Source: a virus
Length of the DNA: 45,411 nucleotides
Reading direction: 5' to 3' (one strand)
IMG/VR virus record: IMGVR_UViG_3300020125_000098
Location: 1-45,411 of that record
Positions 397 through 44,398 of the stretch are shown one piece after another. The first letter of the stretch is position 1. Every line of letters begins with the position of its first letter. The notes below the pieces were generated by a model. That model made no database searches, was not told the origin of the DNA, and saw nothing but the letters and a program-made list of their open reading frames with translations. Made by a program: the position numbers and the translations under genes.

Positions 397-618
397 TTAG
401 GCTCTTGAAGGCAAGAGCGTCAAAACGTTGCGAACCGAATACAGCTTTCCGTTGGCATAACGCCCGCTTTCAACGTGATAAGCCATGGTATGGTCTTGGT
501 TGCCCTTTTGCGGGAACACATTGGAACGAGTGAACCCGCTATTACGCAAAGACCGCAAGGTGGATTTCAGCGCCTTCCTCATAGACATTTGGTCTTTAAA
601 ACCTCTTAGATTTTTCAT
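397..618 (-). CDS. Hypothetical early protein, 73 aa, first gene after the promoter
   Basis: The start ATG at 618 has GGAG eight bases upstream in the leader CTAAGGAGCGCAAAAC. The protein is small and basic, rich in Arg, Lys and Ser, with no recognised domain. It is the first gene downstream of the promoter at 669-697, so it should be among the earliest expressed. Phage proteins in this position often interfere with host functions, but nothing in this sequence shows that. Confidence 0.7.
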   Translation of the reverse strand: MKNLRGFKDQMSMRKALKSTLRSLRNSGFTRSNVFPQKGNQDHTMAYHVESGRYANGKLYSVRNVLTLLPSRA

Positions 619-668: not shown

Positions 669-697
669 AATATAGTCTAAGCTCGCTTAGTAGTCAA
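669..697 (-). promoter_or_regulatory. Sigma70-type promoter with palindrome between -35 and -10
   Basis: Read on the minus strand, TTGACT (697-692) and TATATT (674-669) are separated by exactly 17 bases, matching the TTGACA-17-TATAAT consensus at 10 of 12 positions. The spacer contains the inverted repeat CTAAGC-GA-GCTTAG (677-690), a good place for a repressor to occlude RNA polymerase. The intergenic stretch is AT-rich and about 50 nt upstream of the first gene start. The promoter should drive the early genes from 618 downward and across the circle junction. Confidence 0.8.
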
Positions 698-700
698 GCG
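677..700. promoter_or_regulatory. Candidate operator: CTAAGC palindrome plus shared 17-bp motif
   Basis: Two features overlap here. One is the perfect 6-bp-arm palindrome at 677-690. The other is the 17-bp element CGCTTAGTAGTCAAGCG at 684-700, itself an inverted repeat with CGCTT/AAGCG arms and a 7-nt centre. The 17-bp element recurs at 41980-41996 with two differences and again includes a TTGAC -35-like box. The HTH protein at 37337-37753 is the only clear regulator candidate in the genome, but the pairing is inference. Confidence 0.55.
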
Positions 701-747
701 GATTAAAATAAAAATAATAGCTGTTTTCGCTAGTGTTTGGGCGGGTT

Positions 748-3259: not shown

Positions 3260-3642
3260 ATAAAACTCTCCTTTACGACTTGATTGACTACCTCATAAAT
3301 TGGCTTGGGTTGCCTTTTACTAATTGCGCTTAAAGCTATCTTTGAGCTTTTCCGGTATGCTACCGCTAACAAAACGTAAGGTCCCCACATATCCCCCTTT
3401 GGATTTCGTCCATACCAATTCATCGTGGCTAAAGATTGCCTGTAAGAGGGCCAGAGTTCGGAGAAAAATTCCGGGCCGTTCTGGTCGTAACATGACTTCA
3501 GTTTTTTCAACGCTAGAGCGCAGATGGTACGCTTTTCCTCTTTGGTTAGACATTCCTCCCCCTTTGGTCCGTAAACGTTAGGTAAGAATTGTTGGTTAAG
3601 TTCGAGGACTTGCCAAATGTCCGTGAATGTTGGTTCGTTCAT
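3256..3642 (-). CDS. Hypothetical protein, 128 aa
   Basis: The ATG at 3642 overlaps the upstream stop as ATGA. The sequence is globular: EEKRTICALALKKLKSCYDQ suggests a helix, followed by aromatic segments (FFSELWPSYRQSL, MNWYGRNPKGDMWGPY). No catalytic motif or family is recognised. It lies in a four-gene translationally coupled chain (3639-3854, this gene, 3119-3259, 2957-3094) leading into the helicase, so a replication-accessory role is possible but undemonstrated. Confidence 0.78.
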   Translation of the reverse strand: MNEPTFTDIWQVLELNQQFLPNVYGPKGEECLTKEEKRTICALALKKLKSCYDQNGPEFFSELWPSYRQSLATMNWYGRNPKGDMWGPYVLLAVAYRKSSKIALSAISKRQPKPIYEVVNQVVKESFI

Positions 3643-3854
3643 TTTACCCGTTCCAATTGGGCATCAACGGCCCCTAAACGTTCTAGAAATTTCGGAATTA
3701 CTATGCTTTGAACTCCGGGGCTCATTTTTTGAACCACGTCTAGAGAAAAATGTAATGCTCTTTGTTCTGCAATCAGTTCAATTGTTTTTGAACTATCTTT
3801 CAGATAATCCGGGTATTTTTTCTTTGAACGAAGAGACCAAATAAACTGTTTCAT
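3639..3854 (-). CDS. Hypothetical protein, 71 aa
   Basis: The ATG at 3854 is preceded by AACTGGAGGTTAA with a good Shine-Dalgarno. The protein is small and basic, with a likely central helix (SSKTIELIAEQRALHFSLDVVQ cut in two). No family is recognised. It is the first gene after the structured non-coding region 3855-4133 and heads the helicase operon, so any signal in that region would affect it first. Confidence 0.75.
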   Translation of the reverse strand: MKQFIWSLRSKKKYPDYLKDSSKTIELIAEQRALHFSLDVVQKMSPGVQSIVIPKFLERLGAVDAQLERVK

Positions 3855-4133
3855 TTAACCTCCAGTTAAAACCTAAAATCTGTCGTTACTGTCGTAACGA
3901 ATACACCTTTTAAAAACAACGCTTACAAACCTGCTTTAGTCAAAGACGTAGCGTCTTCCAGCTACGTCTTTGTTAAGAAAAGACGTATCTAGGTGCCGAC
4001 GGTCAAAGTTTTCAAAGTTGCCACTCAATCGGCTGGCTTGGTAAGGCGTACCAGCGACGCTAACCTCTCGGCGGTCCCGGCTATTTTCCGCTAGGACACT
4101 CGTAATACGATGAGTACAGAACAGGGCAATTTT
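3855..4133 (-). ncRNA. Structured non-coding region (candidate ncRNA, leader or origin)
   Basis: No plausible gene is present in about 280 nt, while inverted repeats are dense. They include a perfect 12-bp hairpin (3941-3952/3961-3972, 8-nt loop), a perfect 7-bp hairpin with a 4-nt loop (3883-3889/3894-3900), 5-bp stems at 3995-3999/4029-4033 and 4032-4036/4051-4055, and the palindrome TCGTAATACGA (4100-4110). The 12-bp hairpin has no U-tract on either strand, so it is not a standard terminator. A third copy of AAAGACGTA lies near 3979. The region precedes the helicase operon, so an origin, a regulatory leader or a stable RNA are all possible. Confidence 0.5.
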
Positions 4134-4454: not shown

Positions 4455-4617
4455 AAAATAAAAAAACCCTTGGGCGAAGGGGCGGGATTTGGGTCACGTA
4501 CCCATTGGCTTTCGCCAAACCCACTTCGCTCAAAGGTCTTTAACATCACGTGAACGGTATCCCTACCGTTTCCACTTACAAAGCTAATTCAACTCGCCCA
4601 AAACTTCAAGCACTTTT
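4455..4617 (-). other. Intergenic regulatory region with hairpins
   Basis: Between the metallophosphoesterase and the repeat-protein gene lie a 7-bp-arm hairpin (AACGGTA-TCCC-TACCGTT, 4553-4570), the palindrome TCACGTGA (4546-4553), a GGGT/ACCC hairpin near 4490-4502 and the terminator at 4458-4481. A 42-codon frame starting inside the region runs through the terminator and is not convincing as a gene. Together with 3855-4133, this leaves the repeat-protein gene flanked by structured non-coding DNA on both sides. Confidence 0.5.
4458..4481 (-). terminator. Rho-independent terminator before the repeat-protein gene
   Basis: On the minus strand CCCTT-CGCCC-AAGGG (4481-4467) is followed at once by seven T residues and then ATTTT. 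The stem is short (5 bp) but GC-rich and the U-tract is excellent. It would end transcripts coming from the metallophosphoesterase and lysis block. The U-tract runs into the start codon of the next gene (4454), which is odd: the AAGGG arm is also the only Shine-Dalgarno-like sequence, 12 bases from the ATG. Confidence 0.65.
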
Positions 4618-24765: not shown

Positions 24766-26891
24766 TTATTCGGTTTATATCCCTGTCCGTCCATATACCA
24801 CGCCAGCTTGAACGGGTTATCTATTCCAGCATGCTTCTTCATTCGCTTGACCGTCGGTTCCCATCCCGGAGGCGCAACCTCTCCAAAATCAGTCTCGGCG
24901 TATGGGTGCTTCTTGGCCTTCATTTCTTTCTCGCACTTCTCCCACTCCCTAGGTGTGGCCACCCTTAATTGAGACGGGTAAGCGGTAGCGGAATTCGTCT
25001 CACGCTGTTTAAAGTTCAGGGCGTTCTTAATCGTCTTAGTGGTGTTTGAACTTAACCCTGCCTTGTCACCGCCATACGTTGATTTACTAGTAGGTCCAGC
25101 ACCCGGAGCGGTGGCACCAGCTTTGGGTTGTCCCGGTACGCCTGCACTAGCTCCACCAGAAACAGGAGCTTTTGCGCCTCCACCAGCACCGCCAAATCCT
25201 CCGGGAGGAGTGGGCTGAAACAACATGGCAAGTTGTGGGTCTTTGGCGATTTCATCCTTGATTTCCTTTTGAGTTTCTTCGTAGTCGTAACTGGTATCGT
25301 CCATTTCTTTTGCCGCCGTGGTAGCCGCCTTCTCATGGCTCCAATAACGGTTTTGATCCATGAACGAGATATTACCCAGTTTCTCTTTCTTGTCCTCGGG
25401 CGCAATCTCGGCAAAGATAACCTCAACCTCTTCACTTGCGCTCTTGTCCAATAGACCGCCTTCTTTGGCGTTCTGAATAACTTTCTTCGCCAATTCTTTA
25501 AGACCAAACTCCCACATCTTTTGACGCCTGCGAAAGAACTTGTAAGCGGGTTCAACTTTGGTAATGGCTGACGCCCTGTTCCCGCCTCCACCTCCACCGC
25601 CAACATAGTCTAGGGGTTGGTTGCCAGCACCCGCACCAATACGAGCAAGCATTTCATCCTGAAATCCAGATTTAGCTTCACCCCGTCCGTCCGGTGTCAA
25701 AATCTCTAGTTTGACCGATTCGTTATGCGTGTGTTTGGTGCCAGGGCCTAGGTAATTGGTTTGCACGTTCGCAATGCTCGAGACGTCCGTGTCTTGACCA
25801 AGAACAGTCTCATCAAACACCAAAGCAGACCGATTAATAACCGCAACCGCCTTATAGCGAATAATATCCTGTAGGAGTTTGATATCGGACATGACAGCTA
25901 ATAGGTCGGAGCGTCCACGCTTCTCGTTCTCATAGACGTTTATCTTGAGGTGGACAACCTCGTCGGGTTTAACCACTTCCACAACGTAGTCAGCCATTGG
26001 AATGTTATCGACTGTGTAAAGCTGGTACTGGGTTGGGTACTGCACCCAATAACCCTTAACGTCAAAGATGTTCTTGGGGACGGTGATGATTTCCCAAACC
26101 GTTGAAGCGTCTATGGTCAATAGGTTGCTATATCCTGGCTTTCCGTTCTTGGACATTGCAACTACTCGGAAGAACAGTTCTCCGTCAGTGCAAAGCATAT
26201 CGTTCATCGTGGGGAGTCTTAGGTCAAAGTTACACCGCTCGGTAAACTCATCCCAAACCTCTTGGGCTTTTTCGTCCTCAAAATCCATTTTGATACCGTC
26301 ACCAATGGTAAAGGCTGTCAAAAGAGAGATAAGGCCTTTAGCTACTGCGTCATGGTTCTTTAGTTGGAAACACCTTGCCTGCATCTGCCACATGGCCTGT
26401 AAATAAAGCTGACGGGTGAATGGGCCTGGAGGATATTGGACGTTACCATCTACCGGTTGCCCGAAAACGAATGGGTCTGGGCCACCCAGGGCAAACTCAT
26501 TCCCCACACCCTCAGTTAGCTTGTTCTTGAATTTAGAAAGGTCAACTCTAAGTGATTCGGTTATCTTCTTGCCTTTGACCGTTCGTTCTTTGGGCCAATA
26601 GACCTCAACAATGCGTCCGTAACACTCACGCCCAAACGGGTCAACCCACTTGGGATAGTTCTTGGTCGGGTCTTTGTCCGCTTCAACCGTTCGGATCATC
26701 TTGGGGTTCAACAATTGGAAAGGTTGCCAGCTATCAGCCTCTAGCTTCTTCAACTCTCCCACGTGGTCAGAGATAGTGATTGGGTCGTTATTGACCACAA
26801 CCGTATCTTTGTGGTGGGCGCTCTTATATTTACGTCTCGGCATGGTCGTGGTTAACTGCGCCGATTCAATCTTTATGTTTTTCTTCTTCAC
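24762..26891 (-). CDS. Portal protein with C-terminal extension
   Basis: The 709-aa protein lies between terminase and MuF. Core features include the wing/clip-like helices (YLQAMWQMQARCFQLKNHDA, ERCNFDLRLPTMNDMLC), VHLKINVYENEKRGRSDLLA and the stem region (DIKLLQDIIRYKAVAVINRS). After the crown comes a Gly/Ala/Pro-rich linker (about 570-620), then a basic module ending GIDNPFKLAWYMDGQGYKP, which resembles a short motif found as stand-alone peptides in other phages. Translation starts at GTG 26891 with AAAGGA six bases upstream. The portal drives DNA entry and docks the terminase. Confidence 0.9.
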   Translation of the reverse strand: MKKKNIKIESAQLTTTMPRRKYKSAHHKDTVVVNNDPITISDHVGELKKLEADSWQPFQLLNPKMIRTVEADKDPTKNYPKWVDPFGRECYGRIVEVYWPKERTVKGKKITESLRVDLSKFKNKLTEGVGNEFALGGPDPFVFGQPVDGNVQYPPGPFTRQLYLQAMWQMQARCFQLKNHDAVAKGLISLLTAFTIGDGIKMDFEDEKAQEVWDEFTERCNFDLRLPTMNDMLCTDGELFFRVVAMSKNGKPGYSNLLTIDASTVWEIITVPKNIFDVKGYWVQYPTQYQLYTVDNIPMADYVVEVVKPDEVVHLKINVYENEKRGRSDLLAVMSDIKLLQDIIRYKAVAVINRSALVFDETVLGQDTDVSSIANVQTNYLGPGTKHTHNESVKLEILTPDGRGEAKSGFQDEMLARIGAGAGNQPLDYVGGGGGGGNRASAITKVEPAYKFFRRRQKMWEFGLKELAKKVIQNAKEGGLLDKSASEEVEVIFAEIAPEDKKEKLGNISFMDQNRYWSHEKAATTAAKEMDDTSYDYEETQKEIKDEIAKDPQLAMLFQPTPPGGFGGAGGGAKAPVSGGASAGVPGQPKAGATAPGAGPTSKSTYGGDKAGLSSNTTKTIKNALNFKQRETNSATAYPSQLRVATPREWEKCEKEMKAKKHPYAETDFGEVAPPGWEPTVKRMKKHAGIDNPFKLAWYMDGQGYKPNK

Positions 26892-35842: not shown

Positions 35843-35887
35843 GGTTGTTCCTTAGTGCGTCTCGCTTTGCCCTCTATGCACGGTCCG

Positions 35888-36463: not shown

Positions 36464-36482
36464 TCACGCTCCTTGCAAAGAC

Positions 36483-36755
36483 TTATTTGCACAGTCCAAG
36501 AACTTTTCTAACCGCTTTTTCGTAGAGGGCCTTAACCTCTTTGCTTGGCAAATAACCAAGCATTGATTGGTCTTCCATTTCGTTTTCAACCTCTTCCTTC
36601 ACCGTTGCTTTAAGCCTCTTTAGGAACGCTTTAGAGGCCATGTATTGGGCCAACTGTTTCTTAATGACTGGAATTATTTGCTTTCTTGCTTTTTGAACTT
36701 CCTCCTCTACCATTTCCCTTGAAATTTTCGTCACCAATTCGTCCGATAAAGCCAT
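36483..36755 (-). CDS. Hypothetical helical protein, 90 aa
   Basis: The gene encodes an almost purely helical, charged protein (DELVTKISREMVEEEVQKAR, KAFLKRLKATVKEEVENEME) with a short C-terminal part. The start ATG follows CTGAGGAGGTAGTT; the leader TAACTGAGGAGG recurs upstream of two other early genes. No family is recognised; coiled-coil interaction is likely. Confidence 0.75.
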   Translation of the reverse strand: MALSDELVTKISREMVEEEVQKARKQIIPVIKKQLAQYMASKAFLKRLKATVKEEVENEMEDQSMLGYLPSKEVKALYEKAVRKVLGLCK

Positions 36756-37336: not shown

Positions 37337-37753
37337 TCACCTCACCTGCTTATAAACCACGAATTCCTTTGAATCAAAGTCGTTGTCGGCCACCTCCAAA
37401 ATCCAAGGGAAAGTCAGAATCACTTTCATCAGAGCTACCGCCGAATCGGATATTTCGCCTCGACTCCAACGGGCCATTGTCCTTTGCGGGATTCTAAGAG
37501 AACGCTCGAAATAGGCCTGGGTAATACCCTTGGTCTTCAGAGATTCAATCATATCGGGCACTCCAGTCTCCAAGAGCTTTTTGATCCCGGCGTCATACTT
37601 GGCGTCATTTCCTTCGTCACCCCACTCCTCCCGACAGCCTGAACATTTGTGAATTATTTCTTCGATTTCCGAGAATCCAATAAACCCATCACCGATATTT
37701 CTTTTTTCGGTCCTGCTATTGGTTGAATTTTCACCGCAAATTGGACAGTTCAT
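37337..37753 (-). CDS. MqsA/YgiT-like zinc-finger HTH regulator
   Basis: The 138-aa protein begins with a zinc-binding domain (MNCPICGENS, then HKCSGCREEWGDE) and ends with an HTH (about 80-120; ESLKTKGITQAYFERSLRIP, QRTMARWSRGEISD). This Cys4 plus XRE-like HTH is the layout of YgiT/MqsA antitoxin-type regulators, which bind palindromic operators and repress their own promoters. No toxin partner is adjacent. It is the best candidate in this genome for a repressor of the promoter at 669-697, but that link is inference. Confidence 0.75.
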   Translation of the reverse strand: MNCPICGENSTNSRTEKRNIGDGFIGFSEIEEIIHKCSGCREEWGDEGNDAKYDAGIKKLLETGVPDMIESLKTKGITQAYFERSLRIPQRTMARWSRGEISDSAVALMKVILTFPWILEVADNDFDSKEFVVYKQVR

Positions 37754-37942
37754 TTACGCTTCTCGCTTTGTGTGGAATGCACGTTCAGGACCCTGAAACT
37801 TATGGTTTACAGACCCATCCTCGTGCGAAGCTCTGTTCCATCCGCAAACGTAACCCCTCTCAGAAACCCTTCGGCACCAATCTGGCCCAAGTAATGTGAC
37901 GTTGAAGTTAGCCTTACGCTTTTTCTTTGTCGCTGGTTTCAT
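37754..37942 (-). CDS. Small Cys/His protein, 62 aa
   Basis: The ATG overlaps the upstream TGA as ATGA. The sequence is basic at the start (MKPATKKKRKANFN) and contains CRRVSERGYVCGWNRASHED, then GSVNHKF. The C...C...H...HKF arrangement repeats the small metal-binding motif that occurs several times in the neighbouring 313-aa protein (VCNACG...HE...DGYTHKF), so the two genes appear to share a module. Confidence 0.72.
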   Translation of the reverse strand: MKPATKKKRKANFNVTLLGPDWCRRVSERGYVCGWNRASHEDGSVNHKFQGPERAFHTKREA

Positions 37943-40572: not shown

Positions 40573-40597
40573 ATGTCCTCCTTGTGTTCTACAAAAC

Positions 40598-40975
40598 TCA
40601 CAGCCCGTCTAAATCGGCCATAAACCTCTTGTCCTCTGCGCTTCTAAAGTCGTGGTCATACATCCCCGGAGTAATGGTTTTATAGCGGTGATGGGCTTGG
40701 CAGATGATTTGGGCGTTGGCGAAGGTGTCCGTGTCAACTCCGTGGCGTCCCTTCGGTCTAACGTGGTCCCATTCAAGTGATCCGTGGCACCCAACCGGGT
40801 CAATCCCTCGAATCCCGAACTTCCAAGCCATGCAATACGTCCCACCCTTCTGTTCGTGCTGGGCGTTCAATGCCATCTGTTTCTTGGCACGAAGGCTCCT
40901 CAAACGCTTGATTTGTTTCCTGCTCACCTTTCTCATGGGCTTCCTCTTGGCGTTAGGGTCCCGCTTCATTCCCAT
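40598..40975 (-). CDS. HNH-like nuclease protein
   Basis: About 125 aa, with starts at 40975 (ATG), 40969 (ATG) or 40999 (TTG) all possible. A basic N-terminal helix (KRKPMRKVSRKQIKRLRSLR) precedes an HNH-like core: CHGSLEWDHVRPKGRHGVDT supplies the D-H pair, and ANAQIICQAHHRYKT supplies the second motif with CxxHH. An upstream Cys (YCMAWKFG) may complete a zinc site. It could be a recombination or packaging-associated nuclease; activity is not shown. Confidence 0.78.
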   Translation of the reverse strand: MGMKRDPNAKRKPMRKVSRKQIKRLRSLRAKKQMALNAQHEQKGGTYCMAWKFGIRGIDPVGCHGSLEWDHVRPKGRHGVDTDTFANAQIICQAHHRYKTITPGMYDHDFRSAEDKRFMADLDGL

Positions 40976-41549: not shown

Positions 41550-41716
41550 CACTTCACCCCCTGTAGTTCTTCGATAATTGACTTTTCTTTAACACGATTC
41601 ACGAGCGAAAAAGCACTTGTTAGTGCCACCTGTGAATCTATGTCCTCAACCTTCACGCCATCCAACGCTTCTCCGATAAACTTTAGTGCTTGCTTTAGGT
41701 GTTCCGTTTGGTTCAT
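41549..41716 (-). CDS. Small hypothetical protein, 55 aa
   Basis: The ATG overlaps the upstream stop as TAATG with GGAGGG nearby. The product is helical (HLKQALKFIGEALDGVKVED, SLVNRVKEKSIIEELQGVK). It is coupled at its 3' end by TGATG to the next gene. No family is recognised. Confidence 0.7.
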   Translation of the reverse strand: MNQTEHLKQALKFIGEALDGVKVEDIDSQVALTSAFSLVNRVKEKSIIEELQGVK

Positions 41717-41937
41717 TAATGCCCTCCGTAAAACTTGTTCGAGAAGTCCCGGCGTTCTTGTCTCGCCGCCACCACATCCGAACCCCTAAAATTGGTCTTT
41801 GGTCCTTTGAAAAACGAATCGTAACAATCAACACACGCCCACGCTTGTTTTCCAACCCACGGACCACCAATGAAGTGCCCAACCTTTCCATACTTGACCG
41901 TGGCGTTTTTTCGTTCACACCAACAACACTCTTTCAT
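41716..41937 (-). CDS. Zinc-ribbon-like protein, 73 aa
   Basis: An ATG six bases after GGAGG encodes MKECCWCERKNATVKYGK, then WACVDCYDSFFKGP: two CxxC pairs about 30 residues apart, a zinc-ribbon layout. A basic C-terminus follows (AARQERRDFSNKFYGGH). It is the first gene downstream of the 17-bp motif and TTGACT box at 41980-41996. No function is assigned. Confidence 0.75.
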   Translation of the reverse strand: MKECCWCERKNATVKYGKVGHFIGGPWVGKQAWACVDCYDSFFKGPKTNFRGSDVVAARQERRDFSNKFYGGH

Positions 41938-41979
41938 AACCAACCTCCGCTCTCAGTTGGCTGTATCTTCCGGGAAACA

Positions 41980-41996
41980 CGCTTACAAGTCAAGCG
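41980..41996 (-). promoter_or_regulatory. Second copy of the 17-bp promoter-associated motif
   Basis: CGCTTACAAGTCAAGCG differs from the element at 684-700 at only two positions and keeps the CGCTT/AAGCG inverted repeat. On the minus strand it contains TTGACT, and the zinc-ribbon gene starts about 50 nt downstream, so a promoter is plausible. The -10 region is weak (AAGATA or GAAGAT at 17-18 nt spacing). The motif overlaps the last codons of the gene at 41990-42154. Confidence 0.5.
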
Positions 41997-42154
41997 TTAT
42001 TTTTTAGTTTAGCCAACCTTTTCTTTTCCATGGCAAGCCATCCCTTACGGGCAATTTTCTTGCGCTTTTCGGGAGACAATGCTTCGGCCCTAGCCTCCCC
42101 GCCCTTCTTACCCATGCTCCGATAGTGTTCAGCTATGATTTGTTTCTTGTTCAC
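41990..42154 (-). CDS. Basic KGG-type peptide, 54 aa
   Basis: A GTG after AAGGGGAACAA encodes a lysine-rich helical protein with MGKKGGEARAEALSPEKRKK, then IARKGWLAMEKKR. The GKKGG-x-AR...SPE-(K/R)R...IARK pattern is common in small bacterial and phage proteins with antitoxin-like or histone-like character, though their roles are mostly unknown. It is very basic, so DNA or RNA binding is plausible. Confidence 0.7.
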   Translation of the reverse strand: MNKKQIIAEHYRSMGKKGGEARAEALSPEKRKKIARKGWLAMEKKRLAKLKNNA

Positions 42155-42176: not shown

Positions 42177-42383
42177 TTACTTAGTCGCTCGTCTCATAAA
42201 CGCCGGAACTTCTAGCCAATCCTCTACATTCAATTCTCCGGCCTTCCACCCTATACAATATTTTTCAACAAACATTCCGGATGCCCATTCATTCCCACGC
42301 CACGACCACGGCATCAAATAAATTGGTTCATCTTCCACGAGAAAACACTTTGAGTATCCAAGGTCAACCTTAACTATGCTCAT
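42177..42383 (-). CDS. Hypothetical protein, 68 aa
   Basis: The ATG at 42383 overlaps the previous TGA as ATGA; an in-frame start three codons earlier is less likely. The sequence is beta-rich (SIVKVDLGYSKCFLVEDEPI) with several Trp residues (MPWSWRGNEWASGMF). No family is recognised. Confidence 0.7.
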   Translation of the reverse strand: MSIVKVDLGYSKCFLVEDEPIYLMPWSWRGNEWASGMFVEKYCIGWKAGELNVEDWLEVPAFMRRATK

Positions 42384-42529: not shown

Positions 42530-42558
42530 GTTCTCCTCGCTTATCGTTCTATGCACAG

Positions 42559-42741
42559 TCAGGGTTTGCCAAATGTATTTTTGAATCCGAAAACCCTCAA
42601 AACGTCGCCAACCATAAGTTCAATCGTTACATTTCCATTATCGAAATAACAATCTCGACTGTTGTGTCTAATGTGCTGACCCACTAAAGCTAAAATCAAA
42701 AAAAGAAGAATATAAATCGGTAAAAACCTCAAAATTTTCAT
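42559..42741 (-). CDS. Small membrane-anchored protein, 60 aa
   Basis: The ATG has AGGAGG nine bases upstream. The N-terminus is a single hydrophobic helix (ILRFLPIYILLFLILALVG), followed by a polar part with one Cys (HNSRDCYFDNGNVTIELMVG) and a short C-terminal strand. One membrane helix with an external tail is the likely topology. No family is recognised. Confidence 0.72.
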   Translation of the reverse strand: MKILRFLPIYILLFLILALVGQHIRHNSRDCYFDNGNVTIELMVGDVLRVFGFKNTFGKP

Positions 42742-43469: not shown

Positions 43470-43491
43470 CAATCGTCAATCACAGTTCGGG

Positions 43492-43562
43492 GGTGTGGGA
43501 GGGGAATCGAACCCCCGTCTTGCGCACCACAGGCGCAGGGCCTACCACTGACCGACCCACAC
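43492..43562 (-). tRNA. tRNA-His (anticodon GTG)
   Basis: A full cloverleaf is visible on the minus strand: acceptor stem GTGTGGG/CCCACAC, D-arm GGTC-AGTGGTA-GGCC, anticodon stem TGCGC/GCGCA with loop CTGTGGT (anticodon GTG), variable loop AGAC, and T-arm GGGGG-TTCGATT-CCCCT. The discriminator is C73, the hallmark of tRNA-His. However, the expected encoded G-1 is T here, so the extra base would have to be added or is not used. CCA is not encoded (CCC follows). It may support translation in the host. Confidence 0.9.
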
Positions 43563-44183: not shown

Positions 44184-44215
44184 CACGCCCTCCTTGTGTT
44201 TGGCTGTTTGCACAG

Positions 44216-44398
44216 TCAGCCCTTAATTACCTGCTCGTCAATCTCTTGAATCGTCTTGTTAAGGTTATCCAATGCGGCCGACAGTTCCGGGAACTGCTTT
44301 GTAATCTTCACCTGATTTGCGGCGGCCGCTAGAAACACCCGGCCGACAGCATCACCCAACTTTTTCCAACGCTCCAATTCACGCTTAGATACTGTCAT
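44216..44398 (-). CDS. Small helical protein, 60 aa
   Basis: The ATG at 44398 has GGGGGAGGGGG upstream; a longer open frame to 44476 would overlap the previous gene. The protein is helical (KRELERWKKLGDAVGRVFLA, then FPELSAALDNLNKTIQEIDE). It probably oligomerises. No family is recognised. Confidence 0.7.
   Translation of the reverse strand: MTVSKRELERWKKLGDAVGRVFLAAAANQVKITKQFPELSAALDNLNKTIQEIDEQVIKG

Follow-up and report, generated by a model that had tools for sequence, protein, structure and literature searches.

An operator-like inverted repeat at two putative early promoters of an uncultured tailed phage

Promoter-like hexamers, a palindrome and a 17-bp element overlap at positions 669-700 of this phage DNA, and the element recurs at a second site. 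Does this arrangement represent a promoter with a built-in operator, and might one regulator act at both sites? The window is the whole IMG/VR virus record IMGVR_UViG_3300020125_000098 (45,411 bases), from an uncultured tailed phage. An identical 127-bp repeat is present at its two ends, and a relative, G001 (IMGVR_UViG_3300043811_000019), likewise carries a 127-bp end repeat; the repeat is therefore probably the assembler's overlap and the genome probably circular. All predicted genes taken into account here are on the minus strand. Terminase, portal, head proteins, endolysin, DnaB helicase, a VRR-NUC nuclease, a DNA methyltransferase and glycosyltransferases were among the proteins recognised, and many of the small proteins had no family match. 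No integrase and no RNA polymerase were found among the proteins scanned, which covered part of the small ORFs. If the genome is a circle, a leftward unit starting at about 661 would cover genes 397-618 and 183-362 and then the small genes at 45.4-42 kb. An identical 17-nt leader, AACTAAGGAGCGCAAAA (minus strand), is found upstream of both 183-362 and 397-618 (at 362-378 and 620-636, respectively), and a tRNA-His gene (anticodon GTG; 43490-43562, minus strand) lies within a 253-nt gap.

The first site contains the following features:

669-697, minus strand: putative promoter P1, with TTGACT (697-692), a 17-nt spacer and TATATT (674-669).
677-690, no strand assigned: palindrome CTAAGC-GA-GCTTAG, with perfect 6-bp arms, within the P1 spacer and overlapping the 17-mer by 7 bp.
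684-700, minus strand: 17-bp inverted repeat CGCTT-GACTACT-AAGCG, operator-like copy 1, over the P1 -35 box.
701-719, minus strand: A/T-rich stretch directly upstream of the P1 -35 region.
397-618, minus strand: 73-aa gene directly downstream of P1, without family match.

The minus strand at this site reads CCGCTTGACTACTAAGCGAGCTTAGACTATATTGG, and the arrangement given in the preliminary description, a TTGACT-17-TATATT promoter on this strand (697-669) enclosing a perfect palindrome (690-677), was confirmed. The two hexamers of P1 match the sigma70 consensus at 10 of 12 positions with a spacing of 17 nt, and the scan for TTGACA- and TATAAT-like hexamers 16-18 nt apart recovered P1 and missed the second site. 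Promoter-like sites are no commoner in the window than in shuffled sequences, so that a -35/-10 match counts for little by itself. A perfect 6-bp palindrome occurs in a random 17-nt stretch with a frequency of 0.003. Judged from the sequence, transcription would be expected to start near 661-663, with 397-618 as the first gene, and the A/T-rich stretch at 701-719 is a possible UP element. A putative promoter with a palindromic operator built into it, as originally proposed, is the best reading of 669-700.

The second site lies upstream of another leftward gene:

41980-41996, minus strand: copy 2 of the inverted repeat, CGCTT-GACTTGT-AAGCG, overlapping the TGA stop codon of gene 41990-42154.
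41965-41993, minus strand: putative promoter P2, with TTGACT, 17 nt and GAAGAT; weak -10, missed by the scan.
41716-41943, minus strand: gene of 75 aa, zinc-ribbon-like by its two CxxC pairs, downstream of P2, without family match.

The recurrence of the 17-bp element over a TTGACT box upstream of a zinc-ribbon gene had also been reported, and it held on inspection, the gene being zinc-ribbon-like by its CxxC pairs. The two 17-mers are identical at 15 of 17 positions and agree with CGCTTANNAGTCAAGCG at all 15 of its specified positions; the second site reads AACGCTTGACTTGTAAGCGTGTTTCCCGGAAGATACAG and the core common to both is CGCTTGACTNNTAAGCG. This core is an inverted repeat, CGCTT-N7-AAGCG, around the -35 box, a property that had previously been overlooked. 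Both copies are located in or at intergenic gaps, in the same orientation, around TTGACT and upstream of leftward genes. On the minus strand of the window, only these two places come within one mismatch of the CGCTT/AAGCG arms, and the only other place within three mismatches of CGCTTANNAGTCAAGCG (42186-42202) is inside a gene. Duplication of a larger segment was considered as the source of the two copies and rejected, the similarity stopping at the 17-mer.

It is plausible that the copy of the repeat at 41996-41980 belongs to a second promoter. However, the evidence for P2 is much weaker than that for P1, because GAAGAT, the best -10 at 17 nt, keeps just three consensus bases next to a near-consensus -35, and because the element overlaps a stop codon: the -35 box of the second site extends over the end of the small gene 41990-42154, and part of the element is coding sequence. 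A truncated third form had been placed near 3919, and we could not uphold it as a further copy. The 9-mer CGCTTACAA is indeed present at 3920-3928, but it also occurs inside a gene (25540-25548), and the nearby TTGACT is arranged differently, standing 13 nt rather than 2 nt before TAAGCG, with no -10 after it. The gap in which it lies (3855-4133), upstream of gene 3639-3854, folds only slightly better than shuffled sequences (z -2.0) and contains a hairpin (AAAGACGTAGC...GCTACGTCTTT, minus strand) with about 11 bp of perfect pairing.

The window contains 117 same-strand pairs of 17-mers with at most two mismatches, and bare 17-mer similarity is therefore not significant. The pair 684-700/41980-41996 was nevertheless the sole one of the 117 with both copies in gaps between genes, where simple arithmetic gives about 0.6 expected. 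Once the TTGACT box is taken as given, 9 of the 11 flanking positions agree, a level reached by 0.024% (0.00024) of the same-hexamer pairs in the window; among 4000 simulated intergenic sets, only 3 gave any such TTGAC[AT] pair, in no case also as an inverted repeat. On these last two figures, from tests that were post hoc and framed after the sites had been seen, the shared element is probably not due to chance.

Searches of IMG/VR (by protein, alignment and DNA pattern), GTDB genomes and phage records yielded a single informative relative, G001, identified through its DnaB (58% identical). DnaB, 1268-1675, 748-942 and the HNH protein are common to the two phages. The 17-mer is absent from G001, including the matching place, and the expectation that it would be kept upstream of the same genes in relatives was therefore not borne out in the only relative found; a near-match at G001 3395 was dismissed as being inside the terminase gene. 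Immediately past the stop codon of its 748-942 homologue, G001 carries TTGACTTTATACCCCATTGGGGGTACATC, that is, TTGACT followed by the perfect palindrome TACCCC-ATTG-GGGGTA (G001 37130, about L003 12625). This was the only one of the 27 TTGAC[AT] boxes on the G001 coding strand to have a 6-bp palindrome within the next 25 nt. The box lacks a good -10, and the gene that follows is ribbon-helix-helix-like (weak match). We interpret this G001 site as a promoter that has kept its place and carries another operator. Thus, what recurs in G001 is the promoter's place and its palindromic character, not the sequence of the 17-mer.

Elsewhere in IMG/VR, exact core matches were found in 28 stretches, many of them one sequence repeated, and all lie in open reading frames without a -10; the 17-mer is not a widespread operator. 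DNA pattern searches of IMG/VR revealed no instance of the 17-mer as a promoter element, and a pattern for the longer element found nothing there. Protein searches of IMG/VR identified no relatives of 397-618, 41716-41943, 37337-37753 or the terminase, and a two-row DnaB alignment recovered no useful relative beyond G001 in that database. DnaB had only distant relatives in the GTDB genomes and, by tblastn, only distant matches in phage records, in which 37337-37753 and 397-618 had none. A 61-bp DNA match to Sphingomonas phage Birtae was dismissed, as it had no support at the protein level.

We favour, with a probability of about one half, a reading in which a single dimeric phage regulator has operators overlapping two sigma70-type early promoters. 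P1 (697-669), and probably P2 (41993-41965), would be early promoters for the host sigma70 RNA polymerase, and one and the same DNA-binding protein of the phage, a dimer, would have its operator in the CGCTT-N7-AAGCG repeat framing each -35. Once bound at the repeat, this regulator would block polymerase and turn off two leftward units together, the small-gene cassette from P1 and the zinc-ribbon/173-aa/HNH unit from P2; the second, overlapping palindrome at P1, CTAAGCGAGCTTAG, may allow tighter control. Against this reading count the small number of sites (only two), the lack of a regulator gene beside either, the absence of the 17-mer from G001 and of any promoter-like use of it in IMG/VR, the poor -10 and partly coding element of P2, the lack of a good -10 at the G001 box and the post hoc statistics. 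As for the small phage regulon under one controlling protein that was originally suggested, its sequence was well described and a pair of operator-bearing promoters is plausible, but a regulon that includes the third site reads too much into the data, and the single protein is inferred from two sites.

Chance resemblance would make P1 an ordinary unregulated sigma70 promoter, the 17-mer and palindrome arising from a shared -35 and many possible pairs. The 117 pairs of equal grade, the equal abundance of promoter-like sites in shuffles, the absence of the element from G001 and the 28 matches confined to open frames without a -10 all fit this explanation. However, they leave aside that this pair alone has both copies in gaps, the 3 in 4000 simulated sets, the inverted repeat around the -35 in both copies and the palindrome at the syntenic G001 position, and we consider chance rather unlikely.

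In transcripts reading through from upstream genes, the repeat could instead act as a small RNA hairpin with stem CGCUUG/UAAGCG and loop ACUNN, at which the 3' end of the upstream gene would be processed or weakly terminated. The minus-strand RNA of each site can form a hairpin, of -4.6 and -7.2 kcal/mol, in which a G-U pair uses conserved positions, the second site abuts a stop codon, and a scan flagged 41979-41997 as terminator-like on the plus strand. Nevertheless, neither hairpin is followed by a U-run on the minus strand, there are no apparent plus-strand genes here, and the -35 and -10 of P1 would be left unexplained, so that a role in RNA seems improbable. Similarly slight is the probability that the repeat binds a phage activator or RNA-polymerase modifier that switches P1 and P2 on later. 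The near-consensus -35 combined with a poor -10 at P2 would suit an activator, but P1 looks strong unaided, the scanned proteins included no recognisable phage polymerase or sigma factor, and a site over the -35 hexamer usually excludes polymerase.

Autorepressed promoters in phages and mobile elements typically have inverted repeats in their core; in Aca-controlled promoters the repeat is always inside the core promoter, at times with a second one (PMC9410906). The Aca-controlled acr-aca promoters are the closest described design; like the present sites, they combine near-consensus -35 and -10 hexamers with an internal inverted repeat, to which another is sometimes added (PMC9410906). A -35/-10 core with an internal inverted repeat is present at P1 and, given its weak -10, only in part at P2. 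Unlike Aca systems, the same repeat stands at two promoters, no anti-CRISPR was recognised and no aca gene follows in the operon: neither P1 nor P2 has a helix-turn-helix repressor gene close downstream, and no helix-turn-helix match was obtained in the genes after P1 or directly after P2.

L5-type stoperators at early promoters cover the -35; their consensus, GGTGGMTGTCAAG, is an asymmetric 13-mer with many copies. In the window this consensus had no exact match and three matches with two mismatches, a number reached by 18 of 100 shuffles. The sites described here resemble mycobacteriophage L5-type stoperators as short phage repressor sites repeated in the genome, whereas a stoperator is asymmetric, occurs in many copies and is recognised by a repressor monomer, and here there is an inverted repeat in two copies (PMC9283540).

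Only one candidate regulator was recognised:

37337-37753, minus strand: MqsA-like protein of 138 aa, with N-terminal cysteines and a C-terminal helix-turn-helix.

Aca repressors also have a helix-turn-helix, Aca2 resembling MqsA in structure and Aca3 matching MqsA by profile (PMC9410906). The N-terminal cysteine pairs and C-terminal helix-turn-helix of 37337-37753 are like those of the MqsA antitoxin, from which it differs in that no toxin partner was identified and no 17-mer copy lies upstream of its gene (PMC4803016). Its match to TIGR03830 (MqsA family; E 1e-6, residues 3-116) scored 28.5 bits, below the cut-off of 61.8, which leaves it outside the family by that threshold while its layout and span agree. 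A structure model from the single sequence was of low confidence (mean pLDDT 42.5) and was set aside. MqsA operators are palindromes of the AACCT/AGGTT type. No AACCT-N-AGGTT-type palindrome was present at either site, and the one match in the window (20826; 0.38 expected by chance) is inside a gene. The gene adjoins neither site, being located about 4 kb beyond P2, and has no match in G001. Nothing ties 37337-37753 to either site; it is a reasonable candidate for the regulator of both, and the best one, although the odds are against it, and the true regulator could be any of the small proteins without a family match.

Other elements of the two genomes also attracted our attention. A probable small RNA of about 125-135 nt lies at 4460-4585 (minus strand) and at L003 8369-8540 (plus strand), in each phage within the region that precedes the replication genes. 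Its predicted fold (z-scores -4.5 and -6.2) has a long stem closing off two hairpins that lie side by side, with six bases left unpaired on the 3' side and then a U-run; the topology is nearly identical in the two phages and the sequences are strongly different. It had no Rfam match, and the G001 copy has a promoter-like TTGACT-18-TAGAGT. A repeat of about 30 nt at gene junctions, CTGACTGTGCATA-N6-AAGCGAGGAG with variants CGGGCTGTGAGT..., was found on the minus strand, mostly at or just past a stop codon and running into the next ribosome-binding site:

35858-35887, 36469-36498, 37759-37788, 42533-42562, 44190-44219, 125-154, 153-182 and 40578-40607, minus strand: gene-junction repeat.

Its placement, but not its sequence, is like that of the start-associated sequences in Cluster K mycobacteriophages (PMC3203893). 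An early gene of G001 contains a coding region of 9-nt repeats (GCCGCCTAC/GCCGCCACC; L003 16056-16356).

The most specific form of the proposal, which we regard as improbable, is that a toxin-less phage MqsA-like zinc/helix-turn-helix protein co-represses two early promoters on either side of a small-gene cassette. It would act through an inverted repeat that embraces the -35 and that, between related phages, changes fast in spelling and stays fixed in place. In a phage with no recognised integrase, an immunity-like operator specificity would then be undergoing turnover, a notion that we hold with equal reserve. Palindromic operators within the early promoters of phages are a well-known kind of control site. 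If the favoured reading of two promoters under one regulator is true, it would identify the main early switch in a phage lineage of which hardly any relatives have been sequenced, as well as a place where the operator sequence appears to change while the promoter keeps its position.
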